The notes under the pieces are model-generated. The model made no database searches, was not told the DNA's origin, and saw nothing but the letters and a program-made list of their open reading frames with translations. Shown piece by piece: positions 7,805-18,684 of a stretch of DNA of 64,000 nt (the stretch's first letter is position 1; every line of letters begins with the position of its first letter). The stretch covers positions 1 to 64,000 of the forward strand of contig JAIQFP010000025.1 in NCBI GenBank assembly GCA_020073165.1, in the 5' to 3' direction. A program made the position numbers and the translations under genes. The stretch comes from Terriglobia bacterium. GTDB lineage: Bacteria; Acidobacteriota; Terriglobia; Terriglobales; Acidobacteriaceae.

Positions 7805-8665
7805 TTGCGTGGAGTTTTGAAACTCGCGGCCAAAATCCTGATCACCGTCCTGCTGGGCGGCTTCCTGGGTGCGACCCTGGTGCGCCTGGCTCCGGGTTTT
7901 GGAGTGGATGAGGAGGAGTTGGACCCTCGCCTCAACCAGCAGAGCATCGTGGCCCTGCGACAGGCGCATGCTCCCGAGAGCAATCTGATGGTTCTCTATT
8001 TCCATTACCTCGACCGGTTGCTGCACGGGGATCTGGGAATCTCACGCACGCTACAGCGGCCGGTCCGGCAGCTCCTGGTGGAGCGCTTTCCGGAAACGAT
8101 GAAGGGAGTTGGCCTGGGACTCGCGCTGGGATGGACGCTGGGGTTGGGCTTGGCAGTGGCCACCGTAATGTCGAGAGCTTGGTACCTCGATCTGTCTGCC
8201 GGGATCCTGGCAGGACTGCTGCTGTGTCTGCCGGCAGCAGTTTTGGCGTTGCTTTTTGTTCTGGCCCAAGCTCCGGCGCGACTGATCCTGGGATTAATTG
8301 TGTTTCCCAAGGTGTTCCGCTATTCGCGCAATCTCTTGGCGCGGAGTTCCGCCTTGCCGCATGTGTTGATGGCCCGAGCCAAGGGCTTGGGCAACCTCCG
8401 GGTGCTGGTGTGGCACATCCTGCCGACGGCCGCGCCGCAGCTGCTGGCGCTGGCTGGGGTTTCGGTCAGCGTGGCATTCACCGCCGCCATTCCGGTGGAA
8501 GCGCTGTGCGACTTGCCCGGGATTGGGCAGCTTGCCTGGAAAGCCGCGCTGGGACGGGATGTAGCCCTGCTGATCAATCTCACCATGATCGTCACCCTGG
8601 TCACGCTGGTGGCCAATTCGGCGTCCGATCTGATGGGAAACAGGTTCCGGAGGGCGGAAGCATGA
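7805..8665 (+). CDS. Peptide/nickel-type ABC transporter permease (DppB/OppB family)
   Basis: Encodes 286 residues; TTG 7805 follows AGGGTGAG. An N-terminal membrane helix, a periplasmic stretch containing VLYFHYLDRLLHGDLGISRTLQRPV and a run of membrane helices define a DppB-type BPD permease. The conserved pattern RARAKGLGNLRVLVWHILP is the EAA loop that contacts the ATPase. It is the first gene of an operon: the next start overlaps its stop (ATGA at 8662-8665). The periplasmic domain is shorter than in classical DppB. Substrate class (peptide or similar) is inferred from family only. Confidence 0.87.
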   Translation: MRGVLKLAAKILITVLLGGFLGATLVRLAPGFGVDEEELDPRLNQQSIVALRQAHAPESNLMVLYFHYLDRLLHGDLGISRTLQRPVRQLLVERFPETMKGVGLGLALGWTLGLGLAVATVMSRAWYLDLSAGILAGLLLCLPAAVLALLFVLAQAPARLILGLIVFPKVFRYSRNLLARSSALPHVLMARAKGLGNLRVLVWHILPTAAPQLLALAGVSVSVAFTAAIPVEALCDLPGIGQLAWKAALGRDVALLINLTMIVTLVTLVANSASDLMGNRFRRAEA

Positions 8666-9468
8666 AGTGGGCGCGCATCATGGCGATCGCTTTTCTGTTG
8701 GTCGTATCGGCCGCCAGCCTGCTCGCGAACTTCGTGGCGCCCGCTTCGTACGCACACCAGTTCCGCGATGTGCCCGACGCCGCGCCTTCCCGGCAACATC
8801 TCCTGGGGACGGACGACCTGGGACGCGATCGTTTTTCCCGCGTGCTTTACGGAACAAGGGTGTCGCTATTGCTGGCGCCGGCAGCTGCGCTGCTGGCGAG
8901 CGTGCTTGCGGCTCTGGTGGGCGGCATCGCCGGGTTTGTGGGCGGCTGGGTGGAGCGTTGTGTGATGGCCGCTACCGATCTGTTTCTCTCGCTGCCCTGG
9001 CTCTTCCTGCTGATCACGGTGCGGGCGCTTCTACCCTTGAATGTGTCGCCGGTTACATCGGTCGTGATCACTTTCGCTTTGCTGGGTTGCCTGGGATGGG
9101 CGGGCGCTGCGCGAGTAGTCTGCGCGGATGCACGTGCTCTGTCGCAATCAGATTTTGTGCTGCTGGCGCGGGCCTCGGGGAGTGCCGGCATACGGTTGCT
9201 GTGGCATCACCTGGTCCCCAACCTGAAGCCGGTGCTGTACGCGCAGTTCTGGATCTCCGTGCCGGTGTTCATGATTGCGGAAGCCAACCTTGGAATCCTG
9301 GGGCTGGGTGTGGCCGAGCCCCTACCTTCCTGGGGCAGCCTGCTGCGCGAACTGGAAAGCTTTTCGACCATCTCTGGCCAGCCCTGGCAGTTTGTTCCAC
9401 TCATTCTTTTGATTGTCGTAGTCAGCAGTTTTCATCTTGTCCTGACGCAAGAGGAGTTGCCGGTATGA
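8662..9468 (+). CDS. Peptide-type ABC transporter permease (DppC/OppC family)
   Basis: Encodes 268 residues from ATG 8662, overlapping the previous stop by 4 bp. Upstream in-frame sequence belongs to the previous gene read in another frame, so the start is secure. HLLGTDDLGRDRFSRVLYGTRVSL near residue 45 is the DppC signature, followed by membrane helices and an EAA-like loop (ARASGSAGIRLLWHHLVPN). It pairs with the preceding permease to form the membrane channel. Its own TGA overlaps the next ATG (9465-9468). Confidence 0.88.
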   Translation: MKWARIMAIAFLLVVSAASLLANFVAPASYAHQFRDVPDAAPSRQHLLGTDDLGRDRFSRVLYGTRVSLLLAPAAALLASVLAALVGGIAGFVGGWVERCVMAATDLFLSLPWLFLLITVRALLPLNVSPVTSVVITFALLGCLGWAGAARVVCADARALSQSDFVLLARASGSAGIRLLWHHLVPNLKPVLYAQFWISVPVFMIAEANLGILGLGVAEPLPSWGSLLRELESFSTISGQPWQFVPLILLIVVVSSFHLVLTQEELPV

Positions 9469-11096
9469 GACAACGCTGGGTCCGCATTGTTCTGTTGATT
9501 CTGGCCGTCCTGAGCACGGGGATTGCACTCGCCCAATCGGGTGGTGAGTTGCGCTTCTGCCTCCGCTCGGATCCCAAGACCTTCAACCCATTGCTGATGG
9601 CGGACGACGCCTCCGAGACGGTTCGCTACTTAACCGGCGGTGTGCTGATGCGCCTGAACCGGCTGACGCAGGAAGCGGAGCCGGAACTGGCCACCTCCTG
9701 GAAGGTCAGCGACGGCGGCAAGACGATCACGCTCAAACTGCGGGACGGTGTCCGCTTCTCCGATGGCACACCCCTCTCGTCGGACGACGTGGCTTACACA
9801 GTCCAACAACTCATGGACCCTGCTCTGCATTCGCCTACGGGCGATGCTTTCCGCTCAGGTGAAGGCCGGGTCATCACCCGCGTGCTGGGAAAGAACCGCA
9901 TCACGATCACCTTTCCCGCTCCCATCGCCGGCCTGGACAAATTGTTTGACCAGGTGGCCATCATGTCGGCCAAGTCGCCGCAGAAGGAAATGGCGGTGCT
10001 GGGCCCGTATTACGTGGCGGAGAACAAAGCCGGCGCTTACCTGATCCTGAAGCGCAATCCGAATTACTGGAAGCACGACTCCAGCGGCCGGCAGTTGCCC
10101 TACATCGATTCCGTCCGCCTCGAAATTCAGCAGAACCGCGACATCGAGACGCTCCGGTTGGAGCGGGGTGAGATTGACTTCATCAATTCCATCGACGCCG
10201 AGTACTACGACAAGGTGATGGCGCAGAACCCGGCAATGGCGCACGATGCCGGCATCTCGCTGGATGCGGAATTCATGTGGTTCAACCAGGTGCCGACCTC
10301 TCCGTTGCCCGCATACAAGAAGGCGTGGTTCACGTCCACCAACTTCCGGCGGGCGATTTCAGAAGCTATCAACCGCGAAGACCTGGTACGCATCGCGTTC
10401 CGTGGACGCGCTCATCCGGCGGCTGGCCCCGTTTCTCCCGGCAACAAGTTCTGGTTCAACTCCAAGCTGCAGCCGCACCCGTTCGACCAGAAATCAGCCT
10501 TGCAGCGGCTGGCGCAGGATGGCTTCCACCTGCAGGATGGCGTGCTCCATGACCGCGACGGACATATGGTCGAGTTTTCGATTGTCACCAATGCCGGCAA
10601 CAAATACCGCGAGCGCATGGCCACCATGATCCAGCAGGACCTGTCAGGCATCGGAATCAAACTGAACGTGGTCACGCTGGATTTCCCTTCGCTCATCGAA
10701 CGCATGACGCGCACTTTCGACTACGAAGCCTGCCTGCTCGGCCTGGTGAATACGGACTTGGATCCGAACTCGCAAATGAACGTGTGGCTCAGCTCCTCGG
10801 ACAATCACCAGTGGAATCCCAGCCAGAAAACTCCGGCTACGGCTTGGGAAGCGGAGATCGACAAACTGATGCGCGCCCAAGCGTCCGCTCTGGATGCGAA
10901 ACAGCGCAAACAATATTTTGACCAGGTTCAGGAAATCGCCTGGGAGCAGGAGCCCTTCATCTACCTGGTGAACAAGGATGCGCTGTCGGCGGTATCGCCG
11001 TCGGTGCGCAACGTGCATCCGGTGGTGCTGCGGCCGCAGGTGTACTGGAACATTGACGAACTCTCGCTGGGCAGCGAGGTGGCCAGGAACAAGTAA
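9465..11096 (+). CDS. Extracytoplasmic peptide-binding protein (SBP family 5)
   Basis: Encodes 543 residues from ATG 9465. It has a signal peptide (RIVLLILAVLSTGIALAQS) without a lipobox Cys, so the protein should be periplasmic and not lipid-anchored. The mature part starts GGELRFCLRSDPKTFNPL and carries W-K-V-S-D-G-G-K-T-I-T-L-K-L-R-D-G-V-R-F-S-D-G, the hallmark of DppA/OppA-type binding proteins. Length is typical. It is third in the transporter operon, and its TAA overlaps the next ATG by one base. The ligand cannot be read from sequence. Confidence 0.9.
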   Translation: MRQRWVRIVLLILAVLSTGIALAQSGGELRFCLRSDPKTFNPLLMADDASETVRYLTGGVLMRLNRLTQEAEPELATSWKVSDGGKTITLKLRDGVRFSDGTPLSSDDVAYTVQQLMDPALHSPTGDAFRSGEGRVITRVLGKNRITITFPAPIAGLDKLFDQVAIMSAKSPQKEMAVLGPYYVAENKAGAYLILKRNPNYWKHDSSGRQLPYIDSVRLEIQQNRDIETLRLERGEIDFINSIDAEYYDKVMAQNPAMAHDAGISLDAEFMWFNQVPTSPLPAYKKAWFTSTNFRRAISEAINREDLVRIAFRGRAHPAAGPVSPGNKFWFNSKLQPHPFDQKSALQRLAQDGFHLQDGVLHDRDGHMVEFSIVTNAGNKYRERMATMIQQDLSGIGIKLNVVTLDFPSLIERMTRTFDYEACLLGLVNTDLDPNSQMNVWLSSSDNHQWNPSQKTPATAWEAEIDKLMRAQASALDAKQRKQYFDQVQEIAWEQEPFIYLVNKDALSAVSPSVRNVHPVVLRPQVYWNIDELSLGSEVARNK

Positions 11097-11896
11097 TGGA
11101 CGCGCTCTTGTCACTCCGAGTCTCGGGAGGCTATTCCGGAAAGCCGGGAGTGATGCGCGACCTTGCGCTCGAACTGCGCGAACGGGAAATCCTCGGCTTG
11201 GTGGGGCAGAGCGGCTGCGGCAAGAGCACCCTGGCGCTGGCCATCCTGAAGCTGCTTCATTTGAAGGGTGGGAAAGTTGAGGGCTCGATCCGGCTCAAGG
11301 GGCGCGAATTGATGGCTCTGGGCGAGCGCGAGATGCGCGCGCTGCGGGGCAGCGAGATCGGGCTGGTGTTGCAGAGCCCGATGTCCTCACTCAATCCCGC
11401 GCTACGCATCGGCACCCAACTGGAAGAGGCGTGGCGAGTGCACCGCCGCGGAACTCACGAGGAGTGCCGGCGGGCGCTGCTGGAGCGTCTAGAAAATGTG
11501 AGCCTGCCGGCGGAACCTGGGTTCCTGAAAAGGTATCCGTCACAACTGAGCGTCGGGCAGGCGCAACGGGTGCTGATCGCGATGGCGGTTCTGCATCGCC
11601 CGGCGCTTCTGATTGCCGACGAGCCGACCAGCGCTCTGGACCTGATCACCCAGTCGGAAATTCTGCAACTCTTCGCCAGCGTCAGGCGCCAGTTCGGCAT
11701 GACTATCCTCTATATCTCTCATGATCTGCTTTCGGTGGCGACTATCAGCGACCGGATGGCAGTGATGCACCAGGGTGAAATCGTGGAGTGCCGCCCGACG
11801 GCGGAGATTTTCCGCGAACCGGCACATCCCTACACCCAGGAGTTGATTCGCGCCCTTCCAGTGGTGCCACAGCTCGCAGCAGCTGCTGGCAAATAG
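11096..11896 (+). CDS. Peptide-type ABC transporter ATPase (DppD/OppD family)
   Basis: Encodes 266 residues; ATG 11096 shares a base with the preceding TAA. It has Walker A GQSGCGKST (~39-47), a Q-loop QSPMSSLNPALRIG, a signature LSVGQAQR, Walker B LLIADEPTSALD and a switch His in YISHD. The family normally works as a DppD/DppF heterodimer, but only one ATPase gene is present here; the next gene is unrelated and on the other strand. The C-terminal iron-sulfur/CPxG extension of long DppD proteins is also absent. The protein may homodimerise or pair with an ATPase encoded elsewhere. Confidence 0.88.
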   Translation: MDALLSLRVSGGYSGKPGVMRDLALELREREILGLVGQSGCGKSTLALAILKLLHLKGGKVEGSIRLKGRELMALGEREMRALRGSEIGLVLQSPMSSLNPALRIGTQLEEAWRVHRRGTHEECRRALLERLENVSLPAEPGFLKRYPSQLSVGQAQRVLIAMAVLHRPALLIADEPTSALDLITQSEILQLFASVRRQFGMTILYISHDLLSVATISDRMAVMHQGEIVECRPTAEIFREPAHPYTQELIRALPVVPQLAAAAGK

Positions 11897-11994: not shown

Positions 11995-12447
11995 TTATTT
12001 TCTGCCGGGGTGGAACTCTCCCTTGCGGGAGAATTGGGAATACGGCCACTCGCTCTTCTTGGCAGGATTGGAGACGGCGGCGGCTGCGGCAAAGGCTTTG
12101 GACTCGCTTCCCCAATCGGCTGGGGCAGGCGCGATGCCCCAGATGTTTCCAGCCTGGTCCAAACCCAGCCCCACCAGCCAGTACTTGCCTTCGCTTCCCA
12201 GCGGGACACAGTTGGCAACACGAGCAGTAACCGTTTGCCCTGTTGGGAGTTCGTCGAGGCGAACCGGCAACCCCGGCTCCAGCGGTCGCGAAACCCGTAC
12301 CCCACAGCCCTGAGTGTTCACCACCAAGGTATGGCAGTGCTCGGTGAACTCGACGGCGGGGTCGAGACTGGTCACGCGCAGCGGGATCTGAGCTCGAATT
12401 CGGGTGCTGCGCCGTTGGGCTTCCAAGGATTTCTCGGTCGGGTCCAT
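11995..12447 (-). CDS. PilZ-domain protein
   Basis: Encodes 150 residues from ATG 12447; GTG 12462 is an alternative. RRSTRIRAQIPLRV near residues 12-25 gives the RxxxR element of PilZ domains, and a following beta strand, VVNTQGCGVRV, stands where (D/N)xSxxG is expected (here N-T-Q-G-C-G, a divergent second motif). This predicts a small soluble c-di-GMP receptor or a degenerate relative. The C-terminal 40 residues are Ala/Ser/Lys-rich and probably disordered. It lies downstream of the RiPP operon on the same strand, separated by 150 bp, so cotranscription is uncertain. Confidence 0.68.
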   Translation of the reverse strand: MDPTEKSLEAQRRSTRIRAQIPLRVTSLDPAVEFTEHCHTLVVNTQGCGVRVSRPLEPGLPVRLDELPTGQTVTARVANCVPLGSEGKYWLVGLGLDQAGNIWGIAPAPADWGSESKAFAAAAAVSNPAKKSEWPYSQFSRKGEFHPGRK

Positions 12448-12557
12448 AGGCCTGGTTCTCACAAAATTCTACGTCGGAAAATGCCGGCAGCCTGTGACTA
12501 GGCGGTGGAAAGGAACACCAAAGTAACCAGCGATGCGGGGGCGAGTTCTTGTCTAAA

Positions 12558-12597: not shown

Positions 12598-13686
12598 TTA
12601 CTCGACCAGCGATTGTATCTGTATCAACGGGCCGGAAGTGCGGGTTTTGCGGAGCATATTGGCGGAAGGGATTCCGGTTCGGTGGAACGACTTCTGGCAA
12701 TCCGCCGTCGAGGGACCGCGCATGCTGCCTTCCATGTAAGCCAGGCCGGGACAGCGGGTGCACGTGCCGACATGGCTGCAGGCAGAGCAGACCGGCAGGT
12801 CTTTGGCGCGGATGGAACGAACGTCATTCAACTCGGGCGATTCACGCCAGATATCGATGAACTTCTGCCGGCGCAAGTTGCCGCTAGGTAGCGGAAACTG
12901 CACGCAGGGGAAAACATCGCCGTAGGGGGTAATGTATGCCGCGGTATGCCCGGCGCTGCAGGGCAGGCCTTCCATAACGTCGTCCCCAGGCGGAGGCGGG
13001 GGCGCACAGAACTCTTCCACATTGCCCACCAGATTCTTGTTGTGGAATACCTCGTTCAGCTCTATGCCGGAAATGCGGAGATTGAGGATGGAAGTGTCGC
13101 CGTCGATCTTGGGCGTGATGGTGGGATCGAGCGTATAGCTGACGCCCAGCTCGCCGGCCAGCGCCTGAACTCCGTCATGCTCACCCAGGTTGGCGGTCAT
13201 GAGCACATTGGCGATGGTGACCTTCAATCCCTGCGACTTCAGAAAGCGGATGGCTTCGAGGCTGCGCTTCAGGGAGCCGGGCAACTTGGTGATGGCGTCG
13301 TGGATCTCGGCGCGGCGCGAATAGATGCTGATCTGGACCTGCTCGACACCCAGGTTGCGCATGCGCCGGGCTTCCACCTCACGGATCATGACACCGTTGG
13401 TCTTGATCTTGACGCTGAACAGCAGGCGGCGGGCATGCTCCAGGATTTCAAAGAAGTCACGGCGCATCAGCACTTCACCCCCACTTAGAGTGAGAAAGAA
13501 GGTGCCGGCTTCGGCGAGTTGATTGAGCACATCCTTGATTTCGGCGGTGGTCATTTCGCCGTGGTCGTCGTGCTCCAGGTAGCAGTGGATGCAGCGCTCG
13601 TTGCAGCGGTAGGTAACGTCGAGATGGACGCCCAGCGGAACGCCCAGCGCGAGGGCACGCTCGTTCATCTCCTGCACCAGGCTCAT
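12598..13686 (-). CDS. SPASM-domain radical SAM peptide maturase
   Basis: Encodes 362 residues. The radical SAM cluster motif CNERCIHC puts Cys at 28, 32 and 35, followed by the SAM-binding LSGGEVLMR. The C-terminal half has a SPASM arrangement: PCSAGH, YITPYGDVFPC, GNLRRQKFIDIW, CSACSHVGTCTRCPG and a last Cys near 335. This matches enzymes such as PqqE and sactisynthases that crosslink ribosomal peptides using auxiliary iron-sulfur clusters. It is the last gene of a minus-strand operon with precursor, peptidase, kinase-like and PqqD-like genes, and its start overlaps the PqqD stop (ATGA). The likely substrate is the 59-residue peptide encoded at 15299-15478. Confidence 0.9.
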   Translation of the reverse strand: MSLVQEMNERALALGVPLGVHLDVTYRCNERCIHCYLEHDDHGEMTTAEIKDVLNQLAEAGTFFLTLSGGEVLMRRDFFEILEHARRLLFSVKIKTNGVMIREVEARRMRNLGVEQVQISIYSRRAEIHDAITKLPGSLKRSLEAIRFLKSQGLKVTIANVLMTANLGEHDGVQALAGELGVSYTLDPTITPKIDGDTSILNLRISGIELNEVFHNKNLVGNVEEFCAPPPPPGDDVMEGLPCSAGHTAAYITPYGDVFPCVQFPLPSGNLRRQKFIDIWRESPELNDVRSIRAKDLPVCSACSHVGTCTRCPGLAYMEGSMRGPSTADCQKSFHRTGIPSANMLRKTRTSGPLIQIQSLVE

Positions 13687-13991
13687 GCTGCCTCCACCGG
13701 AGGGTTCTCGAAGGGACGATCGGAGACGAGCAGGATGCCGTGCTGCGCGAGCTCATCCACAAACTGCTCGGCATCGCGGCGCGCGACCTCAGGTTCGACA
13801 TCGAACTCCTCGCACACGATGCGGGCGACGATCTCCGCGAGCGGAGTGCGGCCGTCGGCGGCTTGCCAGATTGCAGTCGCGACCTGGTTGAGGGTGAAAA
13901 ACGTGGAGTCCACGGCCGACATGATCATCATTTCGCCACCCAGCATGCGGGCGGCGATGGCCGTGCTCCTCGCGATGTACTTCTCCGTCAT
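13683..13991 (-). CDS. PqqD-like RiPP recognition protein
   Basis: Encodes 102 residues from ATG 13991. The order MMIMSAVDSTFFTLNQVATAIW (strand, turn, helix) followed by a winged-helix tail with a long FVDELAQHGILLV segment is that of PqqD/RRE proteins. These bind the leader of a precursor peptide and present it to the modifying enzyme. Its stop overlaps the start of the radical SAM gene, and its start overlaps the end of the HPr-kinase-like gene, so translation is probably coupled. The YxxP motif of the adjacent precursor is the expected ligand. Confidence 0.86.
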   Translation of the reverse strand: MTEKYIARSTAIAARMLGGEMMIMSAVDSTFFTLNQVATAIWQAADGRTPLAEIVARIVCEEFDVEPEVARRDAEQFVDELAQHGILLVSDRPFENPPVEAA

Positions 13992-14788
13992 TGAATCAGG
14001 TCCCAAACCCGCTGGTCAGGCACGAAGGTCAAGCGCCGCACCGGCACCCGGTCCACGAATTCACAGGCCGCGCGGAACACCAGCTTCACCAGTTCGACAT
14101 CTTCGGCAAAAAAGAGGATGTTGCGCAGCAAGCAACGAACCGCTTCGGCGGCGCTGAGGGGTTCGATCTTGTTCTCCGGGCCTTGGGCAAGAAGAAACAG
14201 GGTGTCGACAGGAGCAGAACGATTCTCACCCACGCGGGCAAGTTCCCCGGCAAAGGGAGTTCCGCAGGCACGATATTCGTCACCGGTACGGCGGACATAG
14301 GAGACTTCATCGGTAAGCAGAGTCGCGTCCGGCGGCGCCAAACGGGAGATCGTCGTCTTGCCTGCCCCTGACATTCCCGAGAAAAGGAACGCACGACCAT
14401 GCCGGATAGCGCTGGCGGCATGCAGCAGAAAGCCACCCTCCTGCGCCAGGATCAAGGTGTGGACAATGCGCAGCACCGAGTCAATGGAGTAGGGGTTGGC
14501 GGACTGGCGAATGCTTCCCTGGCCGGCGCGCGGGTCCCACCGGGCGCGAAAATCTCCACGGCGCAGATGCCACTGGCCATCTTGCATTTCCACATGCACC
14601 TCCTCGTCGGATTCCATCTCCGGCGAGGGCGTGACCAGGTCGATGTCAAACGCGAACCTGGGTGAAGAGGAAGAGTCCACGAAGCCGGCGTACCGCCTGG
14701 CTAACAACTGGCGGAAGGAAGAGTCCTGGGTACGCAGCAGGATGGGCATACCGCCAATGTCAACGGCGATTTCGTGGCTCCGACTCAC
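13988..14788 (-). CDS. HPr-kinase-like P-loop protein of a RiPP cluster
   Basis: Encodes 266 residues from GTG 14788, with GGGAGAG upstream and a GTGA overlap with the previous stop; longer in-frame sequence upstream belongs to the peptidase gene. The second half is the HPr kinase/phosphorylase fold: a strand HAASAIRHGRAFLFSG leads into the P-loop GMSGAGKTT (~139-147), then LLTDEVSYV with the acidic DE pair, then PFAGE. The N-terminal ~100 residues are a divergent alpha/beta domain. Stand-alone HPrK-like proteins occur in lasso-peptide clusters, where one phosphorylates a C-terminal serine. A peptide kinase role is therefore plausible, since the local precursor also ends in Ser. Confidence 0.8.
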   Translation of the reverse strand: MSRSHEIAVDIGGMPILLRTQDSSFRQLLARRYAGFVDSSSSPRFAFDIDLVTPSPEMESDEEVHVEMQDGQWHLRRGDFRARWDPRAGQGSIRQSANPYSIDSVLRIVHTLILAQEGGFLLHAASAIRHGRAFLFSGMSGAGKTTISRLAPPDATLLTDEVSYVRRTGDEYRACGTPFAGELARVGENRSAPVDTLFLLAQGPENKIEPLSAAEAVRCLLRNILFFAEDVELVKLVFRAACEFVDRVPVRRLTFVPDQRVWDLIQ

Positions 14789-15288
14789 GAGGCCGCTCTC
14801 CCGGCAACGAAGTTGAATCTGGAGCCGGCATCTCTCCGCGCCGCATGCAGCCGCAGTACGAGCCGGCGCAAGAGATCCCAATGGCAGAGCAAGCGGGCAA
14901 CCAGCAGGTGCAGCCGGCCGCGCCCGGAAGCGGGCGCAATGTATGCACCATCGCGCGCGATGCCGGTCACCGTGCCCAGCAACTCCGTGGGACGCACCGG
15001 CGGGTCGTCCTCGGTCATGCAGTCGCCGCGAGTGATCAGCACAGGCTCCCCGCCCAGGACGGATTTGCCCGCTACACGATGAATGAAGAAGCGCCCCTCG
15101 CGGAAATAGAGCGCCAGCTCGCCAACCTGTACCTGTCCAAATTCTCGGGATTGAATGCTGAGGAGATCGCCGGGCCACAAAGCGGGCAGCATGCTGGTTC
15201 CGGTGGCCCGCAACTGCAAGCTCCCCCAGGACCGCAATATCTCGGCTACCAGAATGGACTTAACTTCTCCGCGGGTCTGGGCATTCAT
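14785..15288 (-). CDS. S24/S26-type signal peptidase-like protein, soluble
   Basis: Encodes 167 residues from ATG 15288. It shows the signal peptidase boxes: RATGTSMLPALWPGD with catalytic Ser32, FFIHRVAG with His70, and ITRGDCMTEDD with Gly-Asp near 88-89. His stands where bacterial SPase I has Lys, as in the archaeal/ER SipW-type enzymes. No N-terminal membrane anchor is visible, unlike normal signal peptidases, so it probably acts in the cytoplasm or at the exporter. It starts 10 bp after the precursor stop. The likely job is removal of the precursor leader. The C-terminal ~60 residues are Arg/Leu-rich and unusual. Confidence 0.78.
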   Translation of the reverse strand: MNAQTRGEVKSILVAEILRSWGSLQLRATGTSMLPALWPGDLLSIQSREFGQVQVGELALYFREGRFFIHRVAGKSVLGGEPVLITRGDCMTEDDPPVRPTELLGTVTGIARDGAYIAPASGRGRLHLLVARLLCHWDLLRRLVLRLHAARRDAGSRFNFVAGRAAS

Positions 15289-15298
15289 GGGGCAGCCG

Positions 15299-15478
15299 TC
15301 AGGATACTTTCCTGTTGAACTTGCATTGCTGCTGGCTCCCGCTGATTTTGCCGCAGGACAAAGCCAGGGTTTCAAAAACTCGCTCGTAGCGAAACTCCGG
15401 CTTGCGGTAGGGTCTCTTCCCGGCGGTCCCGCGCGGCACGCTGTTTTGTTCTCCAGAAGGTCGGTTCTTCTGAGTCAT
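15299..15478 (-). CDS. RiPP precursor peptide, 59 residues
   Basis: It starts at ATG 15478, without a strong ribosome-binding site, and stops 10 bp before the peptidase gene. The N-terminal half is basic and polar. A leader motif follows: Y24-R-K-P27 then V-F35-E-T-L, similar to the YxxP...F...T pattern that RRE/PqqD domains bind in lasso-type leaders. After ALS41 comes CGKISGSQQQCKFNRKVS (42-59), with two Cys ten residues apart, three Ser and a C-terminal Ser. Ala39/Ser41 satisfy the -3/-1 rule for signal-peptidase cleavage just before Cys42. The adjacent maturation genes make this the best candidate precursor. The exact modification is unknown. Confidence 0.72.
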   Translation of the reverse strand: MTQKNRPSGEQNSVPRGTAGKRPYRKPEFRYERVFETLALSCGKISGSQQQCKFNRKVS

Positions 15479-15766: not shown

Positions 15767-16573
15767 CTAGTAGAAGGAGAGCGTGCCCTGCAGCCGGGCG
15801 CGGCGGAGGGTGTAGGAGAAGATCATGAGGCTGAAAGGGAGTAGCAACAGGGAAAACAGCGCCAGGATTCCAATCTCCCCAGCGAGAGCGGACCAGTTCG
15901 TCGCTTGCAACAAGGCCATGCGCATGCCATCCAGGGAATGGGTGATGGGAATCAGCTGTGCGACAACACGCAGGGGCCTTGGCAGGGTGGCTACCGGGAA
16001 CAGTGTCCCGGTCATAAACCACGCTCCGGATCCCAGCAGCCACACCAGCGCTGAACCCTTCTGGATGGCCAACTGCAACGCGGCCGCCAGGATGCCAATC
16101 GCCACCGCAATGGTGAGCGAAAGCACGAAGATTACGACACACCCGAGGAAATTGGCGTGCACTGGAGCGCCAAACAACAGCAATCCTGCTCCAAGGTAGA
16201 ACAGCAGTTGCAAAGTGTTTCCCGCAAACGCCGAGATGGCGCTGAGGAATACCAGCACCGGCGCAGGGGTGGATGTGGTCATCAGGATTTCCAGGGTGCC
16301 GGTCTGTTGCGCCTCCTGCACAATGACCAGGAAAGCGTTGATACCCATCACCAGAAACGTATAGAAGCCGGTGCCCACCAGAAGGAACGGGAAATAGTCC
16401 ACTCCGTCGGGGCGAAACCCGGGCCCGATAGCGCGGGACAGGTAATAGAACGCAGCCAGTTCGGCCGCGGCGCCCGCGGCAGTGATCAGGAAGCCAGTGC
16501 GATAGCGAATGGCAGTCAGCAGATCGCGGCGCACGATGGCGGCGGTCTTGTCCAGCAGTTGGGCCAGCTTCAT
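15767..16573 (-). CDS. ABC-2 type exporter permease
   Basis: Encodes 268 residues from ATG 16573, which overlaps the ATPase stop (ATGA); GTG 16579 is an alternative. Six membrane helices are readable, with the ABC-2 pattern: a cytoplasmic AIVRRDLLTAIRYRTG entry, a mid-protein VQEAQQTGTLEILMTTSTP segment and the late PLRVVAQLIPITHSLDGMR motif. It forms an export pump with the adjacent ATPase. Its position next to the RiPP operon suggests export of the mature peptide, but ABC-2 pumps serve many substrates. It ends 289 bp before the precursor start. Confidence 0.86.
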   Translation of the reverse strand: MKLAQLLDKTAAIVRRDLLTAIRYRTGFLITAAGAAAELAAFYYLSRAIGPGFRPDGVDYFPFLLVGTGFYTFLVMGINAFLVIVQEAQQTGTLEILMTTSTPAPVLVFLSAISAFAGNTLQLLFYLGAGLLLFGAPVHANFLGCVVIFVLSLTIAVAIGILAAALQLAIQKGSALVWLLGSGAWFMTGTLFPVATLPRPLRVVAQLIPITHSLDGMRMALLQATNWSALAGEIGILALFSLLLLPFSLMIFSYTLRRARLQGTLSFY

Positions 16574-17367
16574 CGCCACCCCCTGGCCGCCAGCTGCGCA
16601 GCCTCGTCCAGCTCGCCCGTGGTCTGGAAATAAAAGGATCGCAGTTCCTCCACGCTGCTGTCGCCAACCTTGCGATAGCCGGCCAGCCTTCCGTGATGCA
16701 GCACCGCAACGAAATCGCCGACGGCGGCGGCCTCGTTAAAGCTATGGGTTGCGAGGATGACGGTGGCACCCTGGGCAGGCAGTTCGCGCACTAGGTTCCA
16801 GAAGTGCGCCGCCGAGGCCGGGTCGAGGCTGCGGGTGGGCTCATCCAACAGGATGACCGAAGGCTCTTTGATGAGCGCGCGGGCGATGCCCAGCCGTTGA
16901 TACATCCCGCTGGAGAACTTCATGACCAGCGTGTCGGCAGCGTCTAGCAGACCGGTACGTTCCAGCATGGCTTGGACTCGCGAAGGGCGTGCCTTGTGGG
17001 GGACGTCATCCAACGTTGCGAAGAAGTCGAGGTTCTCGCGGGCCGACAGCCGCGGGAAAAACGACCTTTCGGTGGCCACCGCAAACCCGACGTGCTTGCG
17101 GACTTCGTTGGGTGCGCCCTGAGTGTCGGCGCCCTGGACCAATACCCGGCCTGCGTCGGGCAAGAGCATGGTGGAGACCAGCTTCAGGGTGGTGGTCTTG
17201 CCGCTGCCATTGGGGCCGAGCAAAACCAGACTTTTGCCTCGGGCAACACTCAGCGAGACATCGTCGAGGGCGCGGGTTTCGCCACTCCGCTCCCGCCCCA
17301 TCCAATTGAACAGCGCCGGGTGATGGCGGAATATTTTGCTGACGGACTCGAGGACGATGCTGTCCAT
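16570..17367 (-). CDS. ABC exporter ATPase
   Basis: Encodes 265 residues from ATG 17367. It has Walker A GPNGSGKTT, a Q-loop region VATERSFFPRLSARENLDFF, the signature MKFSSGMYQRLGIARAL, Walker B VILLDEPTRSLDP and an H-loop LATHS. The signature has FSSGM in place of LSGGQ, a variant seen in drug and polysaccharide export ATPases. It couples translationally to the ABC-2 permease. It is divergent from the nucleotidyltransferase gene, which starts 123 bp away, so the intergenic space may hold promoters for both. Confidence 0.9.
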   Translation of the reverse strand: MDSIVLESVSKIFRHHPALFNWMGRERSGETRALDDVSLSVARGKSLVLLGPNGSGKTTTLKLVSTMLLPDAGRVLVQGADTQGAPNEVRKHVGFAVATERSFFPRLSARENLDFFATLDDVPHKARPSRVQAMLERTGLLDAADTLVMKFSSGMYQRLGIARALIKEPSVILLDEPTRSLDPASAAHFWNLVRELPAQGATVILATHSFNEAAAVGDFVAVLHHGRLAGYRKVGDSSVEELRSFYFQTTGELDEAAQLAARGWR

Positions 17368-17490
17368 GTTCTCCGCGACACCGGGCGCTGCTGAAAAGCT
17401 ATGCTCTGGAAGTCTCTGTATTATAGTGGCGGCGGTACGGGTTGCCGCACCCGAATCCGCATTTCACCTCTGAGAAGGCGCACCTTGAGC

Positions 17491-18684
17491 ATGCCCATCG
17501 CCGCCTTGCCGCGAACAGTTGGACAAGCGCCACCGCGGCCTGCGCCGGTCTTCGCCTCCAGTCCAGAGTTCGATTTGTTGCTCGCCTGCTGTGCCGAACT
17601 CTCGAACGGCGAACGGACCCAGCGAATCCGCGACCTCCTGGATCATCCGCTTGACTGGCAGCGGCTGATTCAAATTGCCGAGCACCACGGTGTCATACCG
17701 CATCTGTATCGTCATCTTTCCGAGGCGAGCAATGTGCCGCCAGACTCGATCGAGGCGATCCGTCAAGGCTACGAAGCCACCGCTCGCAAGGCCCTATGGC
17801 TGACTGGGGAACTGTTTCGCGTCGTCGCTCACCTGGACTCGCGTGGGATCGCCGTGCTTCCGTACAAAGGCCCTGTCCTGGCTGAGATTCTGTATGGCAA
17901 CGTTGCCCTCCGGCAGTTCTCCGATCTGGATGTGCTCATCCACGCCGCGGATGTGCCGCGGGCCAAGGCGGCCCTGACGGAACTGAGTTACAAACCCGGG
18001 TTCGAGTTTACGCCACAAGAGGGGCGCGCTTACTTTGCATCGGGATACGAATACACGTTCGACAGCGCCCACGGACGCAATCTGCTGGAGCTGCAATGGC
18101 AGATCCAGCCGCGGTTTTATTCGGTAGATCTTGATGTGGATGGGCTTTTCGATCGCGCCCAGTCGGTAGCGGTCGCCGGGCGTTCGCTACAAACGCTCAG
18201 TGCGGAAGACCTGATGCTGGTGCTATGTGTGCATGCCGCCAAACACGCCTGGGTGCAACTTTCGTGGCTGTTCGACATCGTCCAACTAGCGCGCTCGCAG
18301 CGGGTAAATTGGGATGTTGTCACGCAACAGGCAAAGCGCCTTGGCATCGAGCGAATCGTAGCAGCGAGTTTCGCGCTGGCTCAAAAACTGCTCGGTACGG
18401 CGGCGCCTGCAGGACAGGCGCAGAGTCAGGCGGCGGACGAAGCCATTGCACGTGCGATTGTTCCGATCATCGCGCAGGGCACGGAATACGACACCGAGTC
18501 GATCTCTTATTTTCGGCTGATGATGCGCCTGAGGGAGCGCCGTCGGGACCGTCTCCGGTTTCTGTGGCGGCTGATCGTTACCCCGAGTGTCGGGGAATGG
18601 TCGGCAGTGCGCTTGCCCGGGCCGCTTTTCTTTCTCTATCGAGTGGTGCGGATCTTTCGGCTGGCGGCCAGAGTCTTGCGCTGA
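17491..18684 (+). CDS. Nucleotidyltransferase-fold protein (NTP_transf_5 type)
   Basis: Encodes 397 residues from ATG 17491; the frame is open to 17401 but the extra residues look non-coding. The segment VLPYKGPVLAEILYGN...RQFSDLDVLI carries the KG and D145-x-D147 motifs of the uncharacterised nucleotidyltransferase family PF14907. Further conserved features are LELQWQI, and LCVHAAKHAWVQLSWLFDIVQLAR. Members of this family sit in RiPP and polysaccharide clusters together with PqqD, HPrK-like and S26-like proteins. It therefore probably belongs functionally with the peptide operon on the opposite strand. Substrate and reaction are unknown. TATTAT at 17419-17424 is a possible -10 element. Confidence 0.78.
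   Translation: MPIAALPRTVGQAPPRPAPVFASSPEFDLLLACCAELSNGERTQRIRDLLDHPLDWQRLIQIAEHHGVIPHLYRHLSEASNVPPDSIEAIRQGYEATARKALWLTGELFRVVAHLDSRGIAVLPYKGPVLAEILYGNVALRQFSDLDVLIHAADVPRAKAALTELSYKPGFEFTPQEGRAYFASGYEYTFDSAHGRNLLELQWQIQPRFYSVDLDVDGLFDRAQSVAVAGRSLQTLSAEDLMLVLCVHAAKHAWVQLSWLFDIVQLARSQRVNWDVVTQQAKRLGIERIVAASFALAQKLLGTAAPAGQAQSQAADEAIARAIVPIIAQGTEYDTESISYFRLMMRLRERRRDRLRFLWRLIVTPSVGEWSAVRLPGPLFFLYRVVRIFRLAARVLR

Follow-up and report, generated by a model that had tools for sequence, protein, structure and literature searches.

A putative radical SAM peptide cluster of soil Acidobacteriota that combines a PqqD-type recognition element, a PEPCK/HprK-fold kinase and a soluble Sec11-like peptidase

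What is made by an operon in which a radical S-adenosylmethionine (rSAM) enzyme is encoded together with a kinase-like and a signal-peptidase-like protein? Such an operon lies in the window, that is, the whole 64,000-nucleotide stretch analyzed here (positions 1-64,000 of contig JAIQFP010000025.1, assembly GCA_020073165.1; Terriglobia bacterium, Acidobacteriaceae). A first-pass annotation had described five leftward genes, for a precursor, an S26-like peptidase, an HPr-kinase-like protein, a PqqD-like protein and an rSAM enzyme with a SPASM domain, as a new gene combination for a ribosomally synthesized and post-translationally modified peptide (RiPP). The five genes, their coordinates, the 4-bp overlaps that join the S26, kinase, PqqD and rSAM genes, and the 10 bp between the stop of the precursor and the start of the peptidase gene were all borne out by the sequence and the list of open reading frames (ORFs) (Table 1). 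The gene set was incomplete, as it omitted an ATP-binding cassette (ABC) exporter of the ABC-2 type and an NTP_transf_5 protein, which are likely members. On balance, we favor the view that the cluster is a biosynthetic locus for a small ribosomal peptide, with modification by the rSAM enzyme, a kinase and leader removal by a Sec11-like peptidase as proposed below.

The rSAM enzyme was searched for in 297 genomes of the phylum and was present in 53 of them, its own genome included, at a threshold of E 1e-40. Regions around 40 of the 57 rSAM places outside the window were compared. The six loci nearest to the window (L038-L043, in five genomes; rSAM identity 64-77%) all had the kinase and PqqD, and five had the precursor and the S26 protein; L043 was devoid of the latter two and kept the kinase and PqqD. 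The loci named hereafter as the close group are the best 80 of 160 rSAM relatives, mostly from metagenome-assembled genomes (MAGs), which were selected by rSAM alignment alone, without use of the precursor, and whose rSAM enzymes are 62-87% identical. Their genus names place them in Acidobacteriota throughout, except for a Nevskia soli isolate (L120) and a Burkholderiales MAG (L145); mis-binning or transfer possibly accounts for the cluster in these two.

A precursor profile built from six sequences (the window and five loci) matched 70 of the 80 loci, upstream and on the same strand. The S26 protein and the kinase were each found in 73 loci and PqqD in 78, where it lay directly upstream of the rSAM gene, and the full order precursor-S26-kinase-PqqD-rSAM was kept in 65. 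Among the ten precursor-less loci, L088, L118, L124 and L134 are flanked upstream by roughly 1 kb of sequence at most; at L083, L085, L113, L120, L154 and L157 the precursor was absent despite upstream sequence, and a direct tblastn search was also empty. No second copy was found in the window's own genome (next match, E 0.26), and at C23 (L210), where that genome has a weak similarity to the precursor, no YxxP two-Cys ORF could be seen. A chance ORF was rejected because the precursor belongs to a family of 70 members with a fixed place and fixed residues. The precursor is thus genuine, and its frame and Cys pair are conserved in syntenic clusters; a lack of such conservation was what the first-pass annotation had named as speaking against it. 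An additional divergent PqqD-like ORF was seen upstream of the cluster at L082, L090 and L093, the last two of which have no kinase at the locus.

The precursor matched no Pfam or NCBIfam model, and its anatomy was read from 69 intact distinct sequences, or 68 for the stretch from the cleavage site to the end (one duplicate removed). L105 was left out of these counts, as its frame stays open beyond the core; with two N at this locus, the run-on frame is perhaps a sequencing or assembly fault. The Tyr and Pro of the YxxP leader motif were present in all 68 precursors extending that far. Cys1, a Lys and Cys2 were kept in 69/69, the core had exactly two Cys in 68/68, and the two were spaced by nine residues in 57/68; the window core follows the pattern C-G-K-x(7)-C-x(6)-S, and the residues between the Cys are highly variable. 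All 69 intact precursors end in Ser, with variable residues at positions -2 to -7, and this Ser is the sole invariant hydroxyl residue of the core, whose other Ser and Thr vary. The motif first proposed (YxxP, F-E-T, [AS]-C) holds with variants, namely E to V in 18/69, T to V in 4/69 and Thr before Cys1 in 11/68; the motif and Cys pair stood, but two features had been overlooked, namely that the C-terminal Ser never varies and that Cys1 is preceded by an A-L-[S/A/T] site.

At that site, Ala occupies position -3 of Cys1 in 67/68 precursors, and a small residue (S/A/T/G) occupies -1 in 61/68. Signal peptidases follow a rule of small residues at -3 and -1. Because the site fits this rule, release of an 18-residue core would be expected in the window, and the core of this length in the first-pass annotation is supported, provided that the peptidase obeys the rule. 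A lipoprotein reading of ALSC was ruled out, as position -3 is Ala and not Leu and the precursor has no hydrophobic stretch (highest hydropathy, 0.22).

The rSAM enzyme matched Radical_SAM PF04055 with 81.6 bits (cut-off 29.5) and SPASM PF13186 with 45.5 bits (cut-off 21.5). It carries the cluster motif CNERCIHCY and seven Cys in the SPASM region (243, 261, 300, 303, 309, 312 and 330), and its Cys were invariant across seven aligned rows. The nearest solved protein by sequence was SkfB (E 7.5e-22). An assignment of its chemistry from family names was abandoned, as the nearest NCBIfam models (AhbD and MftC) were far under cut-off. The PqqD protein matched PF05402 with 65.9 bits (cut-off 23.4), and the geo_PqqD and lasso_PqqD models matched under cut-off. 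Both Pfam assignments agree with the SPASM rSAM enzyme and PqqD-like RiPP recognition element (RRE) named at first.

The peptidase fell under the curated cut-off of TIGR02228 (37.2 of 51.85 bits), and the best solved match of the S26 profile was SEC11C (E 8.2e-13), the catalytic subunit of the human signal peptidase complex. Ser32 was kept in 72/73 rows, and His70, Asp89 and Asp95 in 73/73. No membrane segment was found in the protein (highest 19-residue hydropathy, 0.99). Its model, with a predicted local distance difference test (pLDDT) score of 89.7, gave Foldseek matches of modest E-value to the LexA C-domain (3e-4) and SEC11A (6.6e-4). By its catalytic residues, the peptidase is an S26B Sec11-like protein, and because it has no membrane anchor it is named "like" rather than a true signal peptidase. 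The soluble signal-peptidase-like protein of the first reading was therefore retained, with Ser, His and Asp kept and no membrane segment.

The kinase was likewise below the curated cut-offs of its nearest named family, ScmC (TIGR04249, 49.5 of 125 bits), and of HprK-related models. Its AlphaFold2 (AF2) model (pLDDT 92.3) matched PEPCK 2pc9 with Z 15.9 over model residues 1-266, the entire protein, with HprK/P ranking below PEPCK as a structural match. His123, Lys144 and Asp160 were invariant in 16 diverse rows, and His, Lys, Asp and a Glu were found in all group rows with a residue at those positions. By its predicted fold and its His, P-loop Lys and Asp, the protein belongs to the PEPCK/HprK superfamily, which agrees with the HPr-kinase-like label given before. 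At a threshold of E 1e-15 across the 297 genomes, the kinase was present in 50 of the 53 rSAM genomes versus 43 of the 244 without rSAM; three genomes had the rSAM enzyme alone.

From the genes, their synteny, the conserved residues and the predicted folds, which are directly supported, we infer all the reactions of the following pathway, including the sites of phosphorylation and cleavage. The PqqD protein would bind the YxKP leader and deliver the precursor to the SPASM rSAM enzyme, which would modify the two-Cys core, most likely through a bond involving Cys1, the invariant Lys or Cys2; the crosslink proposed in the first-pass annotation stays putative. The PEPCK/HprK-fold kinase would phosphorylate the precursor, most likely at the C-terminal Ser, the one hydroxyl residue that all cores share. 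The soluble Sec11-like peptidase would then cut between A-L-[S/A/T] and C, freeing the 18-residue peptide. Capping of the phosphate may fall to the NTP_transf_5 protein, and the ABC-2 pair may serve for export. Near the clusters of the close group, NTP_transf_5 was found in 39/80 loci, the ABC-2 membrane protein homologue in 22/80 and the exporter ATPase homologue in 19/80; in the 38 loci that have ample flank, 7 kb or more upstream and 3.5 kb or more downstream, the counts were 23, 12 and 11. The layout resembles that of phosphorylated lasso peptide clusters, with an rSAM enzyme and an S26-type peptidase in place of the cyclase and the B2 peptidase.

Clusters for phosphorylated lasso peptides (paeninodin, pseudomycoidin and Bradymonas bsf) have in common with the window a YxxP leader, a PqqD/B1-type RRE, an HprK-like kinase with His, Lys, Asp and an acidic residue, a nucleotidyltransferase and an ABC exporter, and paeninodin-type precursors share the C-terminal Ser. 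They differ in that the window cluster has a SPASM rSAM enzyme, a Sec11-like peptidase and a two-Cys core, and no cyclase or B2 (PF13471). One study reports that lasso kinases have a His-Lys-Asp-Asp motif, that several phosphorylate a C-terminal Ser, and that PsmN, a nucleotidyltransferase homologue, adds a hexose to the phosphorylated Ser (PMC9266682); the residues of the window-group kinases are close to the motif reported there for kinases acting on C-terminal Ser. The lasso B2 type (PF13471) was present in 64 of the 297 genomes. At 20 lasso loci, hand-chosen and mostly the strongest PF13471 matches, profiles from the rSAM loci found PqqD at 17, the kinase at 11 and NTP_transf_5 at 8, and a cyclase-like ORF was recognized, by motif only, at 14. 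In lasso kinase rows with the residue present, His and Lys were kept in 11/11 and Asp in 10/12. In a kinase tree with only one lasso kinase of sufficient length, the 25 sampled window-group kinases formed one side of a branch (97/98).

A lasso peptide was ruled out for the window, as the cluster has no B2 and no cyclase. The B2 profile had no match at E 1e-3 in the 80 group loci, PF13471 had none at E 0.01 in the window's own genome, and the two matches there to PF00733 (Asn-synthase type) were both on other contigs. At four distant rSAM loci (L051, L052, L057 and L070), all with kinase and PqqD, the rSAM gene is followed immediately downstream by an ORF for a B2-like Cys/His peptidase, and neither an S26 protein nor a cyclase-like ORF was seen nearby. 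The Asn-synthase matches of these genomes were 34 kb away in G198 and otherwise on different contigs. Judged from the sequences, it is as if one leader peptidase had replaced the other at these loci. Leader motif, RRE, kinase and nucleotidyltransferase thus look to be shared with lasso clusters, with cyclase and peptidase exchanged, and we infer a possible common ancestry of the shared modules from similarity, not from a tree.

Taken as a whole, a RiPP family of rSAM-modified two-Cys peptides that are phosphorylated, and perhaps phosphate-capped, on the C-terminal Ser, in which lasso-type modules serve another class-defining enzyme and a soluble Sec11-like protein removes the leader, is a proposal that we put forward tentatively, and several observations weigh against it. 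Seven of 68 precursors have R, Q, I, V or F at -1. Among the loci with ample flank, NTP_transf_5 was missing in 15 and the ABC-2 protein in 26, so neither is essential. The association of rSAM enzyme and kinase is strong (Fisher p 5e-27), with a test that ignores shared ancestry and is uncorrected for it. The remaining points concern the kinase, which might act elsewhere in the same RiPP cluster. It might target the maturase or a Ser or Thr of leader or core, or serve as a sensor, the C-terminal Ser being kept as a recognition end for peptidase, exporter or rSAM enzyme. Four group loci without a kinase (L090, L093, L104 and L127) keep the C-terminal Ser; L098, in this comparison of kinase-less loci, has an assembly gap. 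Three kinase-bearing lasso loci (L188, L204 and L206) have readable precursors whose last residue is not Ser, and BsfK, a lasso kinase whose cluster encodes RRE, kinase and nucleotidyltransferase as discrete proteins, targets Ser3 and not the C-terminus (PMC10368454). Of 34 distant loci, 15 yielded candidate precursors, which were chosen by eye. Where a kinase lies within 5 kb, they end in G (L044), S (L045, L049 and, twice, L054), T (L055) or A (L066); with none within 5 kb, they end in S at L061, L062, L067-L069, L073, L075 and L077 and in T at L060, which gives a C-terminal Ser at 8/9 loci without a nearby kinase versus 3/6 with one. A simple rule by which a local kinase implies a C-terminal Ser was rejected, as the distant, lasso and kinase-less group loci argue against it. 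Nevertheless, the core has no other invariant Ser or Thr, all nine genomes of the kinase-less distant loci carry a kinase homologue elsewhere that could act in trans (in G033, G059, G119 and G263 it shares the contig of the rSAM gene, at a distance of 6-11 kb), and kinase and rSAM enzyme co-occur strongly; we thus consider action of the kinase elsewhere rather unlikely.

It is improbable, in our judgment, that the product is an intracellular cofactor- or signal-like peptide, comparable to PQQ or mycofactocin, instead of an exported natural product. Among the NCBIfam models displayed, MftC gave the best single-stretch, near-full-length alignment of the rSAM enzyme (126.5 bits, residues 14-321), and the scarcity of ABC-2 homologues at the ample-flank loci fits such a product; the MftC cut-off, however, is 265 bits, the exporter is syntenic at the 22 loci mentioned above, and the strong variation between the Cys suits a diversifying product better than a cofactor.

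Other known systems share parts of the cluster. ScmC of the SynChlorMet cassette (NCBIfam ScmC, ScmD, ScmE and ScmF) is the nearest named kinase family, and by its family names this cassette also has PqqD-like and SPASM rSAM proteins, whereas the window cluster has one rSAM enzyme, an S26-type peptidase and a defined precursor; besides the ScmC score given above, ScmD (28.7 of 100 bits) and ScmE (99.9 of 400) ruled out membership. GeoRSP and mycofactocin/PQQ systems combine a PqqD-like chaperone with a SPASM rSAM enzyme and are not known to have a kinase or S26 partner; membership in GeoRSP was ruled out by scores of 41.1 of 100 bits for geo_PqqD and 112.9 of 400 for GeoRSP_rSAM. Sactipeptide maturases such as SkfB, the nearest solved protein by sequence, likewise act on a Cys-containing core, in which sactipeptides have a Cys-to-alpha-carbon thioether; the window cluster differs in its separate RRE protein, its kinase and its S26 protein.

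A second precursor family (approximately MKKTYERPAIxHTEKLEARAVxCxKxxxxCxxGPIQS) was seen near the rSAM gene, with PqqD-rSAM, at L060-L062, L067-L069 and L075. The kinase is elsewhere in the genome at the second-family loci, in four of them 6-11 kb off on the same contig. Two tandem precursor-like genes of this family lie behind the rSAM gene at L054 (6543-6695 and 6856-6972).

Table 1. Genes of the cluster and its upstream flank, in window coordinates.
Feature	Position	Strand	Basis
Precursor peptide, 59 aa	15299..15478	-	Leader YRKP; predicted site between ALS and C; core CGKISGSQQQCKFNRKVS (18 aa, residues 42-59)
S26B (Sec11-like) soluble Ser/His/Asp peptidase, probable leader peptidase	14785..15288	-	SEC11C profile match, catalytic residues, model
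PEPCK/HprK-fold kinase, GTG start	13988..14788	-	AF2 model, fold matches, invariant His/Lys/Asp
PqqD-type RiPP recognition element (RRE)	13683..13991	-	PF05402 E 4.2e-18
Radical SAM/SPASM enzyme (rSAM)	12598..13686	-	PF04055 and PF13186 above cut-off
ABC-2 exporter membrane subunit, likely cluster member	15767..16579	-	PF12698/PF01061 above cut-off
ABC exporter ATPase, likely cluster member	16570..17367	-	PF00005
NTP_transf_5 nucleotidyltransferase-like protein, divergent from exporter	17401..18684	+	PF14907 211 bits, cut-off 31.2

On the other side of the cluster, a PilZ-like protein (11995-12462; 19.9 of 22.5 bits, under the Pfam cut-off) is encoded immediately downstream of the rSAM gene, and rightward ORFs at 8131-11896, as judged by eye only, resemble genes for the permease, binding protein and ATPase of an ABC importer for peptides. 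Rfam and tRNA scans of the whole window found nothing.

Among the open-access papers listed in the literature search, none named such a cluster in its title or the opening of its abstract. By term search, "kinase" did not occur in the RRE-Finder paper and a structure-based RRE study, nor "signal peptidase" in the latter study and a RiPP leader protease review. The parts are known and the assembly is uncharacterized, yet the combination is not wholly unprecedented, because NCBIfam SynChlorMet already pairs kinase-like, PqqD and SPASM rSAM proteins. The interpretation as a RiPP cluster stands, and its novelty holds in part, given this cassette and the kinase, PqqD and nucleotidyltransferase of phospho-lasso clusters.

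The cluster makes it possible to test whether RiPP classes exchange modules, as related RRE, kinase and nucleotidyltransferase families lie beside either a lasso cyclase or an rSAM enzyme and a YxxP leader motif is common to both cluster types. If the phosphate is found, the product would be a phosphorylated radical-SAM RiPP, with a soluble Sec11-like enzyme as its leader peptidase. For soil Acidobacteriota, these data point to a conserved and unstudied cluster, apparently for a small two-cysteine peptide.

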